From contig DWWU01000004.1 in NCBI GenBank assembly GCA_019119555.1, positions 1-32,950 of the forward strand: a stretch of DNA of 32,950 nt. The letters run 5' to 3'. The notes under the pieces are model-generated. The model was not told where the DNA came from and made no database searches. It was given only the letters and a program-made list of their open reading frames with translations. Shown piece after piece: positions 7,046 through 32,950 of the stretch (its first letter is position 1; each line of letters starts with the position of its first letter). The position numbers were made by a program, and so were the translations under genes. This stretch comes from Candidatus Fusicatenibacter intestinigallinarum. Lineage in GTDB: Bacteria; Bacillota; Clostridia; Lachnospirales; Lachnospiraceae.

Positions 7046-7294
7046 ATGGAAAACTATCGTATGAACTGTGGCTGCTCCTGCGGCATGGGAAATTCAACGG
7101 CAGGTCGTCAGGGTATGTGCAGGCAGCAGGAAAACCTGTGGGATATGTCTGTGGATAAACTTCCCCTGGCGATGGGCTATGTGCCGATGCAGCGCTTTGG
7201 CAAGACCTATGATCTGCGGACAGGGCTTCGTGCCGGGACGATCTTCCCGGATCTGTATAAACCATTCTGTGGAAAAGGAGGCGCCGGATGTTAA
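7046..7294 (+). CDS. cotJA: Spore coat associated protein CotJA
   Basis: An 82-residue, Cys- and Met-rich protein with the CotJA core: LPLAMGYVPMQRF, TYDLRTGLRAGTIFPDLYKPF. CotJA is a small spore-coat component made in the mother cell and, in Bacillus, acts with CotJC. The Cys-rich head (NCGCSCGMG) is common in clostridial versions. AAAGGAAAG lies before the ATG. It overlaps cotJB by 7 bases, so the genes are translationally coupled. First gene of the cotJABC operon, whose third gene is interrupted. Confidence 0.93.
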   Translation: MENYRMNCGCSCGMGNSTAGRQGMCRQQENLWDMSVDKLPLAMGYVPMQRFGKTYDLRTGLRAGTIFPDLYKPFCGKGGAGC

Positions 7295-7578
7295 TGAAAG
7301 GACAGCAGCCGAACCGTGAAAGTCTGCTCGCCTGGATCAATCAGGTGAGCTTTGCCGTCAATGAAATGACGCTTTATCTGGACACCCATCCGGACGATGA
7401 AGACGCTCTGGCATTCTTCCGTGAGAAACTGAAAATGCGTCAGGAAGCGCTGGAGACCTACGCCCGTTTTTATGGTCCGCTGACCATTGATACTGCCAAC
7501 GACAATATGAGCCGTTCGTTCCAGTGGGTACAGCAACCCTGGCCCTGGGAGCCGCAGAGGAAAGGAGGATGCAGATAA
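7288..7578 (+). CDS. cotJB: Spore coat protein CotJB
   Basis: A 96-residue CotJB: LLAWINQVSFAVNEMTLYLDTHPDDEDAL, then a helical middle ending in ARFYGPLTI, and the tail WVQQPWPWEP, a family hallmark. The start has AAAAGGAG 7 bases upstream and overlaps cotJA. The stop is one base before the cotJC start codon region (ATG at 7580). Structural or assembly role in the inner spore coat, inferred from the family. Confidence 0.93.
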   Translation: MLMKGQQPNRESLLAWINQVSFAVNEMTLYLDTHPDDEDALAFFREKLKMRQEALETYARFYGPLTIDTANDNMSRSFQWVQQPWPWEPQRKGGCR

Positions 7579-7579
7579 T

Positions 7580-7693
7580 ATGTGGAATTATGAAAAGAGA
7601 CTGCAGTATCCTGTCAATATCAAAACACCCAATGCAAAGATCGCTCAGATCATCATGAGTCAGTACGGAGGTCCCGATGGCAGAGGGAGATAG
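7580..7693 (+). pseudogene. cotJC: cotJC 5' part (residues 1-34), interrupted by element
   Basis: A start with AGGAGG upstream gives MWNYEKRLQYPVNIK, then IIMSQYGGPDG, the exact N-terminus of CotJC, a manganese-catalase-like spore-coat protein of about 190-210 residues. After Gly34 the frame leaves the family and stops at 7691-7693 after RGR. The remaining 173 residues are encoded at 14057-14579. The break lies inside the shared 14-bp core 7667-7680. In this arrangement only a 37-residue peptide is made. It is not a decayed pseudogene: the frame, ribosome site and sequence are intact, and joining to the second part at the core restores the family sequence. Confidence 0.93.
7667..7680 (+). other. 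Left core (attL) of the cotJC intervening element
   Basis: GGAGGTCCCGATGG, identical to 14043-14056 and in direct orientation. It encodes the Gly-Gly-Pro-Asp-Gly turn of CotJC. Flanking bases differ immediately on both sides, so 14 bp is the full identity. Confidence 0.9.
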
Positions 7694-7703
7694 TTTTCCG
7701 CCG

Positions 7704-7735
7704 GCAACCGTTCCGCGGTGGAACGGTTGCTTTTG
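7704..7735 (+). terminator. Strong terminator just inside the left end
   Basis: GCAACCGTTCC (7704-7714), loop GCGGT, GGAACGGTTGC (7720-7730), then TTTTGTCCTT. A perfect 11-bp stem. It ends the cotJAB transcript before the element's own genes. Its arms resemble the short palindromes of the repeat family and the hairpin after cotJC. Confidence 0.85.
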
Positions 7736-7738
7736 TCC

Positions 7739-7767
7739 TTGACATGTATGGCAAAAGACTTTACAAT
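7739..7767 (+). promoter_or_regulatory. Sigma-A promoter of the molybdenum hydroxylase operon
   Basis: TTGACA (7739-7744), 17-bp spacer, TACAAT (7762-7767). The leader then holds ATGAC...GTCAT arms around TCCGTACGGA (about 7771-7798) and a T-rich run, a possible attenuator. A housekeeping-type promoter suggests expression during growth, not sporulation. Confidence 0.65.
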
Positions 7768-7836
7768 TCTATGACGTGTGTCCGTACGGAAAGGTCATTC
7801 TTTTTTTCGAATTTTTAACATACGGACGGAAAACCA

Positions 7837-7950
7837 TGATATAATGAGCGAAAGTGAGCCAGCGTGAGCTCGCTCACGTATGGCGAACGGCGAATGTCGA
7901 TCACAGGCGGCGCCTGTGATATAATGAGCGAAAGTGAGCCAGCGTGAGCT
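7837..7950 (+). repeat. 34-bp direct repeat with extended -10 and palindromes in operon leader
   Basis: A 34-bp unit occurs at 7837-7870 and 7917-7950, offset 80 bp. Each begins with TGATATAAT, an extended -10. Between them are two perfect dyads: CGTGAGC-TC-GCTCACG (7863-7878) and ATCACAGGC-GGC-GCCTGTGAT (7900-7920). The arrangement suggests a regulated second promoter or duplicated operator; the regulator is not visible. Confidence 0.7.
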
Positions 7951-8009
7951 TTAGGGACATGAAAGTAGCAGCAGAAACAGACAGAGGGAGCAGAGAAAGG
8001 AGATGTTGT

Positions 8010-8804
8010 ATGCTGACGATTCAGGAATATGTAAAAGCGGAAAGTCTGGAGCAGGCCTATGAGCTGAATCAGAAAAAGACGAACCGTATCATCGGCGGAA
8101 TGCTCTGGATGAAGATGAGTCCGCTGAATATAAAAACAGCGATCGACCTGTCCGGCCTGGGGCTGGACCAGATCGAAGAGACGCAGGAGGAATTCCGTAT
8201 CGGGTGTATGGTGACGCTGCGCCAGCTGGAAACGCATCCGGGACTGGAAGCCTATACCGGCGGCAGTATGAAGGAGAGTCTTCGCCATATTGTCGGGGTG
8301 CAGTTCCGCAATCTGGCGACAGTAGGCGGAAGTATTTACGGAAGATTCGGATTTTCGGACGTACTGACGGAGTTTATGGCGCTCGGCGCAGAAGTGGAAC
8401 TGTTTCATGGAGGCCGGATGCCGCTGGAAGAGTTTGCAAAGCTTCCCTATGACAAGGACATCCTCGTAGGGCTGATTCTGAAGAAAGTTCCGCAGAACAG
8501 CGTGTATCTTTCCATGCGGAATACCCGGACAGACTTTCCGGTACTCACCTGCGCGGTGAGCCGCAGGGAAGGAATGACAGGCGCGTTTATCGGCGCCCGT
8601 CCGGGACGGGCCGTGGCGGTGTACGACAGGGCAGGCCTTCTGAAAAGCGGAATCACAGATGCTGCGGCGCGGGAATTCGCAGCCTATGCGGCGGAGCAGA
8701 CGGTGACGGGTTCCAATAAGAGAGCGCAGGCTGAGTACAGAACGCATCTGATCAGGGTTCTGACCCGCAGAGCCTGTCAGCAGCTGGGAGGTGAAACGAA
8801 ATGA
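8010..8804 (+). CDS. xdhB: Xanthine dehydrogenase-type FAD-binding subunit
   Basis: A 264-residue FAD subunit of the molybdenum hydroxylase family (CO dehydrogenase medium subunit type), which passes electrons from the iron-sulfur subunit to an acceptor. Visible: RIIGGMLWM in the first FAD-binding part, FRIGCMVTLRQLE, and the pyrophosphate-binding segment LATVGGSIYGRFGFSD, matching ATVGGN..-SD of the family. It is slightly shorter than typical (about 280-290). AAAGGAG lies 7 bases before the ATG at 8010; a frame extension to 7944 runs into the leader repeat and is rejected. It overlaps the next gene by ATGA. Symbol follows E. coli subunit naming; substrate unproven. Confidence 0.85.
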   Translation: MLTIQEYVKAESLEQAYELNQKKTNRIIGGMLWMKMSPLNIKTAIDLSGLGLDQIEETQEEFRIGCMVTLRQLETHPGLEAYTGGSMKESLRHIVGVQFRNLATVGGSIYGRFGFSDVLTEFMALGAEVELFHGGRMPLEEFAKLPYDKDILVGLILKKVPQNSVYLSMRNTRTDFPVLTCAVSRREGMTGAFIGARPGRAVAVYDRAGLLKSGITDAAAREFAAYAAEQTVTGSNKRAQAEYRTHLIRVLTRRACQQLGGETK

Positions 8805-9265
8805 AAGTGACGGTTACAGTAAACGGAAGAAAAATTCAGGAAGAGATCGAATGTGATCTGCTGCTGATTGATTTTCTGCGCAGTCACGGGTGCATGAGCG
8901 TGAAGCGCGGCTGTGAGACTTCCAACTGTGGGCTGTGTACGGTGATGATGGATGGCAGACCGGTGCTGTCCTGTTCGGTGCTGACCGCCCGCGCGGACGG
9001 ACATACCATCGAGACGCTGGAAGGACTTCAGGAGGAAGCGGAGGAGTTCGGCGCATTTATCGCAGATCAGGGCGCGGAACAGTGCGGTTTCTGCAACCCC
9101 GGTTTTATGATGAACGCCCTGGCTCTGTTCCGGGAGAATCCTGAACCGGATGTGGATGAGATCAAGGAATATCTTGCGGGAAATCTGTGCCGCTGTTCCG
9201 GATACGAGGGACAGCTGCGGGGAATTCTGAACTTTCTGGAATGGAAAAAGGAGGCGAAGAGATGA
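8801..9265 (+). CDS. xdhC: Xanthine dehydrogenase-type 2Fe-2S subunit
   Basis: A 154-residue subunit carrying two [2Fe-2S] clusters. The plant-ferredoxin-like cluster ligands are in GCETSNCGLC and the later SC; the second, helical cluster is QCGFCNPGF and CRCSGYE. Length and order are standard for the family. It transfers electrons from the molybdenum centre to the FAD subunit. It overlaps both neighbours by 4 bases (ATGA), giving tight translational coupling of the three subunits. Confidence 0.93.
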   Translation: MKVTVTVNGRKIQEEIECDLLLIDFLRSHGCMSVKRGCETSNCGLCTVMMDGRPVLSCSVLTARADGHTIETLEGLQEEAEEFGAFIADQGAEQCGFCNPGFMMNALALFRENPEPDVDEIKEYLAGNLCRCSGYEGQLRGILNFLEWKKEAKR

Positions 9266-11541
9266 GAGCAGTCAGTCAGCCGGTGAGAAAAAAAGATGCA
9301 ATGTCGCTGGTGACCGGAAAGCCGGTCTATATGGATGATGTGATCAATCATGAAAACTGCCTGATCGTCAAAGTCCTGCGCAGTCCCCACGCCAACGCCA
9401 TTGTGGAGAGCGTGCAGAAGACGGCTGCAGAGAAGGTACCGGGCATCGAGGCAATCTATACCTGGGAGGATGTGCCCGGGGAGCGGTTTACAATGGCCGG
9501 ACAGACGTATCCGGAGCCCAGCCCCTATGACCGCCTGATTCTGGACCGCCATGTGAGATACGTTGGGGATCCTGTGGCGATTGTGGCGGGCTACAGCGAG
9601 AAGGCTGTGGATAAGGCGCTGAAAATCATAAAGGTAAAATATCAGGTGCTTGAGCCACTGCTGGATTTCCGCAAGGCGAAGGACAATGAGATTCTGGTAC
9701 ATCCGGAGGAAAACTGGAAAGCACTGTGTCCGGTGGGGGCGGACAATAAACGGAATCTCTGCGCTTCCGGGGAGAGCGGAGACGGGGATATCGAGGCGGT
9801 TCTCAGCGACTGTGATATTGTGCTGGAACGTACCTACCATACCAGGGCCTGTCAGCAGGCGATGATGGAAACCTTCCGGACATATTGTTCCATCGACGCC
9901 TACGGAAGACTGAATGTGCTGAGTTCCACGCAGATTGTTTTTCATGTGCGTCGGATTCTGTCCAATGCCCTTGGAATTCCAAAATCCATGATCCGTGTGT
10001 CCAAGGCGAGAATCGGCGGCGGATTCGGAGCGAAACAGAGTGTGGTTGCCGAAGTGTTCCCTGCTTTTGTCACCTGGATGACAAAGAAACCGTCCAGAAT
10101 GATCTACACCCGGCGGGAGAGCCAGACAGCGTCCTCGCCTCGTCATGAGATGGAGGTTACCGTACGGCTTGGCGCAATGAAGGACGGAAAAATCCGCGGG
10201 ATTGACGTGTATACCCTTTCCAATACCGGCGCCTACGGAGAGCACGGTCCGACAACGGTGGGACTGTCCGGTCATAAATCGATTCCTCTGTACGGAACGC
10301 CGGAAGCATATCGGTTCCGCTATGATGTGGTATATACAAACGTTATGTCGGCCGGAGCCTACCGTGGTTACGGCGCAACCCAGGGAATTTTTGCCCTGGA
10401 GACTGCAGTGAACGAGCTGGCGGCGCAGCTGCACATGGATCCTGTTGTGATACGGGAAATCAACATGGTGCGGGAAGGCCAGATCATGCCGGCCTATTAC
10501 GGAGAGCAGACGAACAGCTGTGCGCTGGACCGGTGTGTGGAGCGTGCAAAACAGATGATCGGATGGGAGGAAAAATACCCGTGCCGGGATATGGGAAACG
10601 GAAAGGTGCGGAGCGTGGGAATGGCCATGGCGATGCAGGGTTCCGGAATCGCAGGCGTGGACGTTGGTTCTGCAACGATTAAAATGAATGAGGAAGGCTA
10701 CTATACGATGATCATCGGCGCGGCGGATATGGGAACCGGCTGCGATACGATCCTTGCCCAGATGGCGGCAGAGTGCCTGGACTGTCCGGTGGATGCGGTC
10801 ACCGTCTTCGGTGCGGATACGGATGCGTCGCCCTATGATTCCGGTTCCTACGCATCCAGCACGACGTATGTGACCGGAAAGGCGGTGGAAAAAGCCTGCC
10901 AGAAGCTGAGAGAAAAGATCCTTGAAAAGGGTGCGGAGCTTTTGCAGTGCAGTCCCGAAGAGGCGGAGTTTGACGGAGAAAAGGTCTTCCGCACAGAGAC
11001 CGGAGAATCTGTTGACCTTAAGACCATCGGAACCAGCGCGATGGACGGAAACCGGACCGCCCTGGAAGTGACGGAGACCAACAGCTCGCCGTTTTCTCCT
11101 CCGCCATTTATGTGCGGAATGGCTGAGATTGAACTGGATAAGGAAACCGGACAGGTGGACGTGATTGACTATGTCGCTGTGGTCGACTGCGGAACTGTGG
11201 TAAATCCGAATCTCGCACGGGTACAGACAGAGGGAGGTATTGCCCAGGGAATCGGCATGGCGCTTTTTGAGAACATTCAGTACAGCGACCGGGGACACCT
11301 GTTTGAAAATTCCCTGATGCAGTATAAGATTCCCACCAGAGAGGATATCGGGAAGATCCGGGTGGAGTTTGAGAGCAGTTATGAGCCCACCGGACCGTTT
11401 GGAGCGAAATCCATCGGAGAGATTGTAATCAATACGCCGTCTCCGGCGATCACACAGGCGATTTACAACGCCACCGGACACTGGTTCCGGGAACTTCCGA
11501 TCACTCCGGAGAAGATTGCGATGGTGCTTGCGGATGATTGA
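9262..11541 (+). CDS. xdhA: Molybdenum hydroxylase catalytic subunit (xanthine dehydrogenase type)
   Basis: A 759-residue molybdopterin-binding subunit. It begins VRKKDAMSLVTGKPVYMDD, as in clostridial members, contains the cofactor motif IGGGFGAK (about residue 250), AGAYRGYGATQ (about 365), MGTGCDTI, and GPFGAKSIGE near the C-terminus, whose Glu is the catalytic base of the family. It would hydroxylate a purine or other N-heterocycle; the exact substrate and whether it uses the selenium-containing variant cannot be told. GGAGGCGA precedes the ATG at 9262, which overlaps the upstream stop. It overlaps the MocA-like gene by 8 bases. All key motifs are intact, so it is probably active cargo. 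Confidence 0.9.
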   Translation: MRAVSQPVRKKDAMSLVTGKPVYMDDVINHENCLIVKVLRSPHANAIVESVQKTAAEKVPGIEAIYTWEDVPGERFTMAGQTYPEPSPYDRLILDRHVRYVGDPVAIVAGYSEKAVDKALKIIKVKYQVLEPLLDFRKAKDNEILVHPEENWKALCPVGADNKRNLCASGESGDGDIEAVLSDCDIVLERTYHTRACQQAMMETFRTYCSIDAYGRLNVLSSTQIVFHVRRILSNALGIPKSMIRVSKARIGGGFGAKQSVVAEVFPAFVTWMTKKPSRMIYTRRESQTASSPRHEMEVTVRLGAMKDGKIRGIDVYTLSNTGAYGEHGPTTVGLSGHKSIPLYGTPEAYRFRYDVVYTNVMSAGAYRGYGATQGIFALETAVNELAAQLHMDPVVIREINMVREGQIMPAYYGEQTNSCALDRCVERAKQMIGWEEKYPCRDMGNGKVRSVGMAMAMQGSGIAGVDVGSATIKMNEEGYYTMIIGAADMGTGCDTILAQMAAECLDCPVDAVTVFGADTDASPYDSGSYASSTTYVTGKAVEKACQKLREKILEKGAELLQCSPEEAEFDGEKVFRTETGESVDLKTIGTSAMDGNRTALEVTETNSSPFSPPPFMCGMAEIELDKETGQVDVIDYVAVVDCGTVVNPNLARVQTEGGIAQGIGMALFENIQYSDRGHLFENSLMQYKIPTREDIGKIRVEFESSYEPTGPFGAKSIGEIVINTPSPAITQAIYNATGHWFRELPITPEKIAMVLADD

Positions 11542-12205
11542 TCTGATTCTGCTTGCGGCCGGCAGCAGCCGCAGATTCCGGGCCTCCGGCAGCGGCAGTA
11601 AGCTTCTCACCCTGTGGAACGGGCGGCCCATGTACCGGACCTCGCTGGAGCGCTGGGAGGAAGCTTCCCGGGGAATGCTGGACGGTGGCAGGGTGTATGT
11701 GGTTTCCCGGGAGCCGGAAATCCTGGAGGCGGCAGCGGAATACGGAATGGTTCCGGTTTTCAGCCCGGAAAGCGCGCAGGGAATCTCCTGGTCCATTCGA
11801 AACGGGCTTTGCGCTGCCGGAAGCCAGACGGCAGCCCGGACAGGCCGTCAGGCGGATCACTATGTATTCGCTGTGACGGATCAGCCGATGTTGACCGCAG
11901 GCACGATGCGGCGGTTTCTTCAGCAGGCACAGACCTCCGTCTATGCCTGCCTGAGCTGGGATGGGAGAACCGGCAATCCTGTCTCCTTTCCTGCAGAGGC
12001 CGTGGAGGAACTTATGATGCTTGAGGGCGACAGCGGCGGAAAAAAGGTGCTGCGGCGTCATATGGAAGAGTGTACAATGGTTTCAGCGGCGGAAGCTGTC
12101 GAGCTGAAGGATATCGACACGCTGGAACAGCTGCGGGAAGCCGAACGGGAATCCGTCAGCAGCGGAAAACAAACTGCAGACGGTTTTCCGCCCGGGAAAA
12201 TATAA
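11534..12205 (+). CDS. MocA-like molybdenum cofactor nucleotidyltransferase
   Basis: A 223-residue NTP-transferase of the MobA/MocA type. The N-terminus IDLILLAAGSSRRF is the nucleotide-binding signature (LAAGxSxRF), followed by SKLL (the catalytic Lys region) and VTDQPMLTAGTM (metal-binding Asp). MocA adds cytidine to the molybdenum cofactor for xanthine-dehydrogenase-type enzymes, which fits its place as fourth gene of the operon. The start overlaps the previous stop by 8 bases. Its 3' end overlaps the convergent recombinase gene by 50 bases, and no separate terminator is visible. Confidence 0.85.
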   Translation: MIDLILLAAGSSRRFRASGSGSKLLTLWNGRPMYRTSLERWEEASRGMLDGGRVYVVSREPEILEAAAEYGMVPVFSPESAQGISWSIRNGLCAAGSQTAARTGRQADHYVFAVTDQPMLTAGTMRRFLQQAQTSVYACLSWDGRTGNPVSFPAEAVEELMMLEGDSGGKKVLRRHMEECTMVSAAEAVELKDIDTLEQLREAERESVSSGKQTADGFPPGKI

Positions 12206-13649
12206 TACAGGAAAAAATCAGGCGAAGCAGTTCGTTGGATTCTTTACCAGTGAGAACACCGGATTTCAGCAGACGCACCAGCCCCTGAGAATTCCAGGAG
12301 AAAGAAGGACAGGAGGAAACAGAATCTTCCGGTCCTTCTTTTTCTGTCTCTTTCAGGACAGCGATTTTTTTCCGGATCTCCTGCTTTCGCTGCTGGTATT
12401 CTTCCAGGGAATCCGCCCCTGCCTCATATGCCAGCCGCAGCCGTTCCAGCCGTTTTTCTTCGGCGCGGATCCGGGCCCGGACAGAACAGGGATGCCGGCA
12501 GTCCGACGGCGGCAGGGAAGACTGCGGGGGCTGCACGTAAGAGGACGCCCCGTGCAGGAACAGAGGACATTCTTCCAGCGCCTGCAGGACAGCTGGCTTC
12601 AGAAACCGCAGGGAAATATAATGGCTGCTGCGGCAGCGGCCTTTTGCGTAAGCGCCGCATTGAAGCGCACGTCCCCGGGCGGCGGACACAAGGGCGGAAC
12701 CGCAGGCACTGCACCGGAGGATGCCTCCCGACAGAATTCCTGCTTTCTGTGCTGTGTCGGACGCGTTTTCTGAACAGGGCAAAACGCATTCCCGGTTCCG
12801 GGTCAGCCGTTTCTGCACTGCGTCAAAAAGTTCTTCCGGGACCAGAGGAATATGGGAGGCCGGGACAATCTGCACATCCTGTCCCCGATAAAACCGGTCT
12901 GCAGTTCCGGAGACGGGAGACTTTGGCGCGCCGGCTTTGTCGCTGGAAATTCTGCGGCGAAGTTTTCCGGTATACACAGGATTCGACAGGATATATTCCA
13001 CCGTCCTGCTTTCGAACAGATTTCCCCTGGCCGTGCGGATCCCGGCGCTGTTCAGCCACGCGGCAATTCTGCGGAGAGAACATCCCTGGCTGTATTTCCG
13101 GTAGATCAGGGGGACAAAAGGGGCGGTGTCCTCGTCCGGTTCAAACCGGGAGTTTCCCATCCGGTAACCGAAGGGAGGGACGGACACTGCCTGGCCGCGG
13201 GAAAATTTTTCGTTCATCCCCCGCCGGACCTCCCCTGCCAGATTCAGGGAGTAATATTCGTCCATGGCCTCCAGAAGGGCTTCCACGAGAATGGATGTGG
13301 GATCGTCGGACAGAGGTTCCGAGACAGAAACCACATCCACGCCGCATTCTTTCCGGAGCATGGATTTATACAGAATGCTGTCCTGCCTGTTTCGGGCGAA
13401 ACGGGAATATTTCCAGACAAGAATTACCTGGAAGGGGGTGGGACGTCTGCGCGCGGAGGCAATCATCTGCTGGAAAGCAGGGCGTTTTTGAGCGTTTCGT
13501 CCGCTGATTCCCTCGTCGACATAAATCTGATCGTCAGGAATGGTTATCTGGTGCTGTCCGGCGTACTCACGGATTTTTTTCAGCTGGCTGTCCGGTGAAA
13601 ATTCCAGCTGGTCTTCTGTGGATACCCGGATATACGCGGCGCCTGTCAT
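12156..13649 (-). CDS. Large serine recombinase of the cotJC element
   Basis: A 497-residue site-specific recombinase of the SpoIVCA/SprA/phage-integrase type. Resolvase domain about 1-150: YIRVSTEDQ with the catalytic Ser10, then YVDEGISGRNAQKRPAF and WKYSRFARNR with the conserved Arg. Recombinase domain about 160-290: AGEVRRGMNEKFSRGQ, PPFGYRM, GNLFESRTVEYILSNPVYTGK. Zinc ribbon about 320-350: LRCSACGSAL with later Cys in LQCGAY and GRCRSSHY. Then a charged coiled coil (about 390-440). All parts are present, so it should be active. It starts 394 bases from the right core and has GGGGTGA upstream. Its promoter looks sigma-E-like. It is the obvious candidate to excise the element and rebuild cotJC. 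Confidence 0.93.
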   Translation of the reverse strand: MTGAAYIRVSTEDQLEFSPDSQLKKIREYAGQHQITIPDDQIYVDEGISGRNAQKRPAFQQMIASARRRPTPFQVILVWKYSRFARNRQDSILYKSMLRKECGVDVVSVSEPLSDDPTSILVEALLEAMDEYYSLNLAGEVRRGMNEKFSRGQAVSVPPFGYRMGNSRFEPDEDTAPFVPLIYRKYSQGCSLRRIAAWLNSAGIRTARGNLFESRTVEYILSNPVYTGKLRRRISSDKAGAPKSPVSGTADRFYRGQDVQIVPASHIPLVPEELFDAVQKRLTRNRECVLPCSENASDTAQKAGILSGGILRCSACGSALVSAARGRALQCGAYAKGRCRSSHYISLRFLKPAVLQALEECPLFLHGASSYVQPPQSSLPPSDCRHPCSVRARIRAEEKRLERLRLAYEAGADSLEEYQQRKQEIRKKIAVLKETEKEGPEDSVSSCPSFSWNSQGLVRLLKSGVLTGKESNELLRLIFSCIIFSRAENRLQFVFRC

Positions 13650-13666
13650 AAAAAATCACCCCGGAT

Positions 13667-13687
13667 GGCTATACTTATGATATAGCC
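13667..13687. promoter_or_regulatory. Perfect dyad between recombinase and divergent ORF
   Basis: GGCTATA, seven bases, TATAGCC. It overlaps the -10 and expected start site of the recombinase gene, so a dimeric repressor bound here would block it. It lies in the 59-base gap between two divergent genes. Confidence 0.65.
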
Positions 13688-13712
13688 TATGGTTTCGGAG
13701 GGCAGCTTATGA
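13684..13712 (-). promoter_or_regulatory. Sigma-E-like promoter of the recombinase
   Basis: On the minus strand TCATAAG (13712-13706), 14-bp spacer, CATAGGCT (13691-13684). This fits the mother-cell sigma-E pattern (ATA-rich -35, 14-bp spacing, CATA...T -10), and CATAGGCTA also fits the sigma-K -10 CATAnnnTA. The leader to the ATG at 13649 would be about 28 bases. Consensus is from memory of Bacillus subtilis. Confidence 0.55.
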
Positions 13713-14134
13713 CCGGAAAGAAAAAAGGAGCGAAGACGGGGAAAAGCAGCGGTAGCGGCAGAGGCTGCGGCGGAGGGGAGATACAGGTCTCAGACCGGGC
13801 GGGAGCGCTTTGGCGTGCAGATGATCTGGCGGAGGACAGCAGGACAGGGCAGACCGTGCCGCTGAAGAATCTTTCGGAAAAGGAGAAAAGAGAGTTGGAA
13901 GAATCCATCAGTGAAAGGATCACCGGCTGGCTGATCGGGTATCTGCAGCAGAATCCCGGAAAGCAGAAGCAGGCGCTCGCGTGTCTGGAAGACGGGCTTT
14001 CTGCATCGAACGGAGATTTACTGGCGTCACCGGACGGAATCGGGAGGTCCCGATGGAGAGATGGGCGCGTCGATGCGCTATCTGTCCCAGAGATTCACCG
14101 CCCCGAACCGGACGGTGATGGGCGTCCTGACTGA
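13709..14134 (+). CDS. Small basic protein, candidate directionality factor; ORF crosses attR
   Basis: An unrecognised protein read divergently from the recombinase. GGAGGG lies 7 bases before the ATG, a strong ribosome site. The N-terminus is Lys/Gly-rich (MTGKKKGAKTGKSSGSG), followed by a helical region LSEKEKRELEESISERITGWLIGYL. The frame does not stop inside the element: it passes through the right core and ends at 14134 inside cotJC sequence in another frame, giving 141 residues. In an excised circle the tail would instead be read from the left end of the element. Position, size and divergent control suggest a recombination directionality factor, as SprB or the factor of the C. difficile skin element, but there is no sequence match I can claim. 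Confidence 0.5.
   Translation: MTGKKKGAKTGKSSGSGRGCGGGEIQVSDRAGALWRADDLAEDSRTGQTVPLKNLSEKEKRELEESISERITGWLIGYLQQNPGKQKQALACLEDGLSASNGDLLASPDGIGRSRWRDGRVDALSVPEIHRPEPDGDGRPD
14043..14056 (+). other. Right core (attR) of the cotJC intervening element
   Basis: GGAGGTCCCGATGG, identical to 7667-7680. Here it is part of a perfect dyad ATCGGGA-GG-TCCCGAT (14039-14054) centred on GG at 14046-14047. Serine recombinases cut at a central dinucleotide, so GG is the candidate crossover point. Only 8 kb of sequence lies between this and the repeat unit's neighbours, so position is exact. Confidence 0.88.
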
Positions 14135-14579
14135 TGTGGGGACGGAGGAACTGGCCCATCTTGAGATGGTGGCTACCATCGTCCATCAGCTGACCTGCAA
14201 TCTCACGCCGGAGGAAATCGAAAAACAGGGATTTGCCAACTATTACGTGGATCACACGGTGGGGATCTGGCCGCAGGCGGCAGGCGGCGTTCCGTTCAAT
14301 GCCTGCGAATTTCAGTCAAAAGGCGACCCGGTGACCGACCTGTTTGAAAACCTTGCAGCAGAGCAGAAAGCACGCTCCACATATGACAATATCCTGCGGC
14401 TGGTCAAGGATCCGGAGGTTGCAGACCCGATCCGTTTCCTGCGCGCCCGCGAGATTGTTCACTTCCAGCGGTTCGGAGAGGCGCTCCGTTCTGTGCAGGA
14501 TGATCTCGAATCCAGGAACTTCTATGCATTCAATCCGAGCTTTGACGCGCCGGTATCCTGTCCGCAGTGCGGAAAATAA
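14057..14579 (+). pseudogene. cotJC: cotJC 3' part (residues 35-207), separated from its start
   Basis: The frame continues CotJC from Glu35: EMGASMRYLSQRF, GTEELAHLEMV, LAAEQKARSTYDNI and REIVHFQRF, ending in CPQCGK. CotJC belongs to the manganese-catalase family, and the likely metal ligands are Glu35, the Glu and His of EELAHLE, the Glu of AAEQKA and the His of IVHFQ. The first ligand is the first complete codon after the junction. There is no proper start or ribosome site here (an ATG at 14061 follows the core without one), so the piece is silent unless the element is removed. All conserved features are intact, which argues for selection and against decay. Confidence 0.93.
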
Positions 14580-32714: not shown

Positions 32715-32950
32715 GTGCGCCTGGCGGCGCACGTTTCTAGCGGGTGCAAGTCCCGAATCCGCCCGGTAGTGGGAAGGATATAGCCGAAAGCAAAGGTGTT
32801 GCAGGTGACTGCAAATCTGAAGGAAGCTGGATGTGGGGAACCTACTAACCCACGGGCAAACCTCTGGTCTGACGGACAGAAACCGCATAGAAGGCTGTAC
32901 ATGAGGGTAAGTCTGCGACACAAGACGAAGCCCGATAGCTACACGGAATC
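32715..32950 (+). mobile_element. 5' part of a group II intron, cut by window end
   Basis: Begins GTGCGCC-TGGC-GGCGCAC, the GUGCG 5' end and first stem of bacterial group II introns, followed by GCGGGTGCAAGTCCCG, GCCGAAAGCAAAGG, AATCTGAAGGAAGCTGG, GGTCTGACGGACAGAAACC and AGAAGGCTGTACATG, the familiar domain I segments. Reverse-transcriptase coding sequence should lie beyond the window. It sits 10 bases after a terminator stem, the preferred target of class C introns, although the class cannot be decided from this part. Confidence 0.82.

Follow-up and report, generated by a model that had tools for sequence, protein, structure and literature searches.

The contig DWWU01000004.1 of Candidatus Fusicatenibacter intestinigallinarum raises the question of whether a sporulation gene found in two pieces is broken or is stored in that form until it is used. 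In the 32,950 nucleotides analysed (positions 1 to 32,950, hereafter the window), the gene concerned is cotJC of the cotJABC operon, as identified by Pfam. Its 5′ piece, reaching into codon 34, lies at 7580..7680 on the plus strand, and its 3′ piece, with codons 34-207 and the stop, at 14057..14579 on the same strand; both match Pfam Mn_catalase. The 5′ piece ends in a core of 14 bp, GGAGGTCCCGATGG, at 7667..7680 (attL), which recurs exactly at 14043..14056 (attR). The intervening element, 6,376 bp counting the right core copy, thus occupies 7681..14056. Joining 7580-7680 to 14057-14579 gave 624 nt, that is 207 codons plus stop, in which SQYGGPDG is followed by EMGASMRYLSQ. The Mn_catalase profile was divided in the same manner, with positions 1-34 on the 5′ piece and 35-196 on the 3′ piece, abutting at 34|35. 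Unexcised, the 5′ piece reads on to a stop and gives a 37-residue peptide. The coordinates, the repeat, the length and the in-frame 207 codons had been proposed in an initial annotation of this DNA, and all were correct on recomputation. No further exact copy of GGAGGTCCCGATGG occurs in the window; allowing up to two mismatches there were three matches, against 0.34 expected from shuffles. The first codon past the core is Glu35, as the initial annotation had placed it, and an alignment matched it to Glu35 of the manganese catalase 1jku, which we take to be a metal ligand.

The complete large serine recombinase that had been reported inside the element is an open reading frame (ORF) of 497 residues at 12156..13649 on the minus strand. 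Its Resolvase and Recombinase domains scored over the Pfam cut-offs, a zinc-ribbon domain scored below its own, and the gene occurs once in the organism's genome (2.53 Mb in 45 contigs, 75.66% complete). A split sporulation gene, a direct-repeat core, in-frame restoration and an element-borne large serine recombinase together make up the design of the skin element, to which the locus had been likened with good reason. The cotJ genes are expressed in the mother cell. We consider it probable that the 6,376-bp block is an excisable, domesticated intervening element whose cores would be recombined, releasing a circle and restoring the 207-codon cotJC, probably in the mother cell only.

A comparison with related genomes, as the initial annotation had suggested, was made in a sample of seven from the genus (G000 to G006, G000 being that of the window). 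Whole cotJC genes were found in G002 and G005, and in four of the seven (G000, G001, G003 and G006) the gene is split at codon 34/35, hereafter site A. In G006 the gene is additionally broken near codon 62 (site B) and thus lies in three pieces; G003 carries three breaks, at A, at B and close to codon 174 (site C), leaving four pieces, and G004 is broken at site C only. All these pieces are open and in frame. The site-A elements of the four species have identical gene content and order, that of G001 being distributed over two contigs. In the six pairs of site-A species, the ratio of non-synonymous to synonymous substitution rates (dN/dS) was 0-0.026 for codons 1-33 (dN 0-0.025 with dS of at least 0.76) and 0.007-0.019 for codons 36-170; the site-A recombinase gave about 0.17-0.21. 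Since both parts are under strong purifying selection and the same element is present in four species, cotJC appears to be still in use. The hydroxylase subunits carried as cargo, described below, showed a dS of 0.63-1.32, which overlaps that of the flanking AAA, PPM, CotJB and MATE genes (0.85-1.79), although PPM and MATE lay somewhat above the cargo and two MarR pairs were saturated. Read as a rough clock, these values are most simply explained by one element that looks to have been inherited from before the divergence of the four species, cotJC remaining in use all along. A split that looks old in a gene that seems still to be used implies rejoining. The site-A recombinase of G003 (L050, 8186-9877) has 563 residues, and a stretch falling between residues 380 and 408 of its counterpart in the window does not align.

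The interruption extends well beyond the genus. A match to cotJC was obtained in 243 of 397 sampled Lachnospiraceae genomes (E 1e-6), and 112 of the 243, 12 of them with partial matches, were re-searched for pieces: 78 had pieces abutting at one of four recurrent sites, 22 were partial or unclear and 12 were whole. Together with the window's genome, at least 79 of the 243 genomes carry a cotJC split at one or more of these sites, a lower bound, since hidden split copies were looked for only in the 112 and not in the remaining 131. The split lies within one contig in 51 of the 78, some of these contigs measuring 2.8-6.9 Mb (G052, G143, G276, G287, G324, G396). DNA was analysed for 100 of 165 planned regions, preferring one-contig pieces and multiple splits; genomes entered this set for their split cotJC, not for their recombinases, and one spurious stretch in L201 and the 22 partial or unclear genomes were left out of the counts. 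This yielded 83 junctions in 68 genomes, the genus included: 28 at site A, 30 at B, 15 at C, nine at a fourth site, D, and one unassigned. Elements occupy two or three sites in 14 of the 68 genomes; for G178, which is interrupted at A and C, no piece from between these two sites was recovered. A whole cotJB lies directly upstream in 66 of 67 genomes.

The 61 elements with both ends on one contig measure 1.6-118 kb (median 7.7 kb), with 39 below 12 kb and 16 of at least 20 kb, and their contents range from prophages to small non-phage islands. Six of ten proteins from the edges of five large interruptions match phage tail or endolysin families. Proteins tried from small elements included an iron hydrogenase/rubrerythrin fusion, two sulfate permeases, TrkA, TrkH, ABC transporters, a P-type ATPase, a diguanylate cyclase and a family-20 glycosidase; the site-B element of G006 encodes a Rep-like protein, and some small elements hold little beyond a recombinase. 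In L170 (G206), site C is interrupted by 2.2 kb with hardly more than a 513-residue recombinase, a 60-residue ORF overlapping its start and a 103-residue ORF; by its gene content this element may be nearly the smallest form of a DNA insert that removes itself. In L188 (G270), 1.7 kb with a 486-residue ORF and no recombinase match interrupts a cotJC-like copy near codon 78-80; we attribute this break to a different kind of insertion.

Exact repeats of at least 7 nt were present on the length-preserving register at 44 of the 83 junctions, compared with 0.4% of control registers (Mann-Whitney p 1.9e-38). They begin at codons 28-31 for site A (except in G315), 60-65 for B, 134 for D and 171-175 for C. 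With the ligand numbers that we take to hold for the L. plantarum manganese catalase, the alignment to 1jku placed the metal ligands of CotJC at Glu35, Glu65, His68, Glu136 and His169. Site D lies at codons 134-136, and each of the four sites coincides with or adjoins a metal-ligand motif. Of the five 40-nt stretches of cotJC with the highest conservation, four fall no more than five codons from a site; at the precise centres of the four sites, conservation was not significant (p 0.10). Joins running from first to last codon were 185-235 residues long in 51 of 53 cases, a result that is not independent on its own since the join was picked by protein score. For G315 and G080 no full-length join was obtained.

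A serine recombinase ORF was found in the analysed element DNA at 76 of the 83 junctions, the remaining seven being those of G103, G117, G261, G267 and G369 (site B), G315 (site A) and G270. In a quick tree of 74 recombinases, the four site labels were distributed with three changes, the minimum for four sites, against a mean of 38.0 when labels were shuffled. Junctions were labelled here by the start of the 3′ piece (one unassigned, three changes) in place of the end of the 5′ piece (three unassigned, seven changes), because the 5′ alignments overran some breaks. Sites A, C and D each form one side of a branch, and the window's recombinase belongs to the site-A lineage; site B falls into two groups, for which the well-supported branches do not force two origins, and the deep joins carry long-branch warnings. 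Small ORFs conserved within a lineage stand beside the recombinases in 10 genomes for site C, in seven for D and in five and four for B, and may act as directionality factors. The counterpart in the genus is OrfX (13709..14134, plus strand), a small ORF that runs across attR, divergent from the recombinase, and has relatives in the three other site-A species. It had no match to Pfam or NCBIfam and changes fast (dN 0.399, dS 1.20 over 55 codons of one pair); by its position it is a candidate directionality factor. An uninterrupted cotJB just 5′ of the split gene, the presence of recombinases at its junctions and a recombinase tree that sorts by site suggest that cotJC is special, and we regard it as a hotspot for interruptions in Lachnospiraceae. 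In Parablautia sp. Marseille-Q6255, an isolate, the 3′ part of cotJC starting at codon 26 adjoins a recombinase of 500 residues (L113). A viral contig of 42.8 kb from IMG/VR (L243) also carries a cotJC fragment: a recombinase 43% identical to that of the window is directly followed by cotJC codons 28-65.

The remainder of the window's element is an operon of the molybdenum hydroxylase type on the plus strand: a FAD-binding subunit (8010..8804), a 2Fe-2S subunit (8801..9265), a molybdopterin-binding subunit with XdhA as nearest model (9259..11541) and a MocA-like cofactor nucleotidyltransferase (11516..12205). All four were assigned by Pfam; the nearest NCBIfam models of the hydroxylase are of the xanthine dehydrogenase type, and scores stayed below their cut-offs. 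Searches of the element with Pfam and NCBIfam recognised no phage gene: its proteins match metabolic or recombinase families, apart from OrfX with none. The molybdenum subunit was matched in all seven genus genomes. In the four site-A species its sole match lies inside the element; in G002, G004 and G005 it is located elsewhere, is 73-75% identical and has no recombinase nearby within regions of 8-11 kb. Its neighbours there include a gene of the xanthine/uracil permease family (G004) and one with a phosphoribosyltransferase domain (G002). Carriage of this operon may thus contribute to retention of the element in the germ line.

From these observations a course of events can be proposed. By analogy with skin, SP-beta and gin, the recombinase of each lineage would integrate its element at an attB site within cotJC, and the element would then stay quiet during growth. 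In the mother cell of a sporulating culture, and presumably there alone, the window's recombinase, with OrfX as its putative directionality factor, would recombine the two 14-bp cores into a circle and a 207-codon cotJC, while the spore would inherit the split gene together with the operon. Genomes with two or three elements would need as many independent excisions to assemble the gene. For the family as a whole we favour, with less assurance than for the window's element itself, the view that Lachnospiraceae routinely store cotJC in pieces: recombinase lineages dedicated to four catalytic-motif sites would hold prophages and small metabolic islands there, multi-element species would join three or four pieces by two or three mother-cell excisions, and the window's germ line would keep its only known copy of a purine-hydroxylase-like operon, which the mother cell would trade for a working coat gene.

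Several results weigh against programmed excision. The initial annotation had held that a second intact cotJC would make the split copy irrelevant; none was found in the window's 75.66% complete genome and none in G006, but two sister species, G001 and G003, possess an intact paralogue that is 63% identical. The dS values are near saturation, and an old transfer among relatives may account for the shared element. Some junction cores measure merely 2-4 nt (2 nt at site B of G006), and the attP junction expected of an excised form had no match in viral contigs. Sigma-E-like promoters were found 5′ of 12 of 68 recombinases, compared with 4.0 in shuffles, yet 8 of 68 had one on the opposite strand, and the window's own recombinase has a sigma-E-like site only with four mismatches; the scan speaks neither for nor against timing in sporulation. 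Matches to the spore_sigmaK model stayed below its cut-off in all seven genus genomes, the strongest being present in six of them and absent from the incomplete one of the window.

Of the other explanations, the one that survives best, though we judge it unlikely, regards the interruptions as ordinary mobile elements. On this view, the conserved catalytic codons of cotJC and its silence during growth would make it suitable for attachment, induction would be generic and any joining in sporulation incidental. The phage tail and endolysin genes at the edges of several large interruptions agree with this, as do related integrases in phages (L250 and L251): that of Dorea phage DO134P1 is 62.4% identical to the site-B recombinase of G143, and that of bajarodcaudo virus 3 is 43.8% identical to the window's. 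For the attachment cores of these two phages no match was obtained. However, 39 of the 61 one-contig elements are smaller than 12 kb, the small ones examined carrying metabolic genes or hardly more than a recombinase; inheritance of the window's element seems to have been vertical, with selection acting on cotJC; and 62 of the 78 split genomes show no whole second copy. That the insertion killed cotJC and left decaying remnants is improbable. A paralogue is present in the other 16 split genomes, and in relatives the function was reported to be dispensable or redundant (passages of PMC11222575 and PMC12122855), but the open, in-frame and strongly conserved pieces of the four site-A species and the narrow length range of the joined proteins are hard to reconcile with decay. 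It is very doubtful that the 3′ piece functions as an independent gene: a 172-residue ORF does begin at ATG 14061 and could give a shortened coat protein with no need for rejoining, but this protein would be without Glu35, the 33-codon 5′ piece is equally conserved, and the further breaks in G006 and G003 leave middle and last pieces. An assembly artefact of metagenome bins, suggested by the many draft genomes and the incompleteness of the window's own, is refuted in substance by the same element in four genomes and the one-contig splits in 51 of 78. The preferred reading remains excision of a domesticated element.

The closest known systems include skin in sigK and SP-beta in spsM: according to passages of PMC5595907 and PMC6957869, precise excision by a serine recombinase with a small directionality factor restores the gene. 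They share with the cotJC element the location in a mother-cell sporulation gene, the short direct-repeat core and the element-borne serine recombinase, and the overlap of Skr with spoIVCA in skin (passages of PMC6957869) resembles the placement of the small ORFs beside the cotJC recombinases. In contrast to both, the cotJC element targets a coat gene, contains a host-like metabolic operon and no recognised phage gene, and belongs to a set that uses four recurrent sites, up to three at once; excision of skin and SP-beta has been demonstrated, that of the cotJC element is predicted. The gin element in gerE of Bacillus cereus, also non-phage, is described in passages of PMC5595907 as 28.6 kb long with three recombinases, present in some B. 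cereus and B. toyonensis, and excised by the serine recombinase GirC with the factor GirX. The window's element likewise combines a sporulation gene, a serine recombinase and no phage genes, but has one recombinase in 6.4 kb, a purine-type operon and a distribution over four species. The element yin in yabG of Clostridium botulinum interrupts a coat-processing gene and carries a recombinase with a putative directionality factor, as the cotJC elements do; in the passages of PMC10747680 it is prophage-like and unique to one strain, unlike the cotJC elements that recur across a family. The heterocyst interruption elements of cyanobacteria offer a parallel for several elements in one gene, with four in nifD of Rivularia, for recombinases that mostly cluster by element variant, and for excision in a differentiating cell (passages of PMC4874684). 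They differ in phylum and process, involve no spore gene, and 52 of 100 of their recombinases are of the tyrosine type. In Clostridioides difficile, attR of prophage phi027 adjoins a cotJC-like gene; the prophage lies beside this apparently whole 678-bp gene and not inside it, and restoration is not reported in the passages of PMC11222575 and PMC12122855. The passages of PMC5595907, PMC6957869, PMC10083194 and PMC10747680 do not mention cotJ, and no recognisable account of an interrupted cotJC was found among the matches listed for open-access full text, which leaves preprints and subscription papers outside. A multi-site, domesticated variant of the skin-type rearrangement in cotJC is therefore likely to be new.

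Programmed rearrangement of sporulation genes has so far been known from a few unconnected examples. In the present sample, elements of about 1.6 to 118 kb interrupt a single coat gene repeatedly, beside its catalytic codons, in genomes from across a major family of gut bacteria. This provides dozens of natural replicates for asking why mother-cell genes attract integrases, how prophages may shrink into domesticated elements and how a host-like operon comes to reside in one. It is also a source of many large serine recombinases whose natural attachment sites are defined by sequence. Gene finders have likely annotated many such cotJC genes as broken.

The genes upstream in the operon are both whole and on the plus strand, cotJA at 7046..7294 (Pfam CotJA) and cotJB at 7288..7578 (Pfam CotJB), the latter directly 5′ of cotJC. 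A tRNA-linked island was considered for the element and rejected, as was a self-splicing intron, Rfam at gathering score giving no match inside it. The only Rfam match in the window is a group II intron (D1-D4-3) at 32799-32950, cut by the window end. A 30-bp direct repeat at 7840-7869 and 7920-7949 lies 5′ of the gene for the FAD-binding subunit; the stretch of G001 that aligns there did not show it. Finally, the inverted repeat GGCTATA...TATAGCC at 13667-13687, between the recombinase and OrfX, lies in an AT-rich stretch that is alike in the four site-A species, and on the recombinase strand a CATANNNTA-like motif is present in three of the four.

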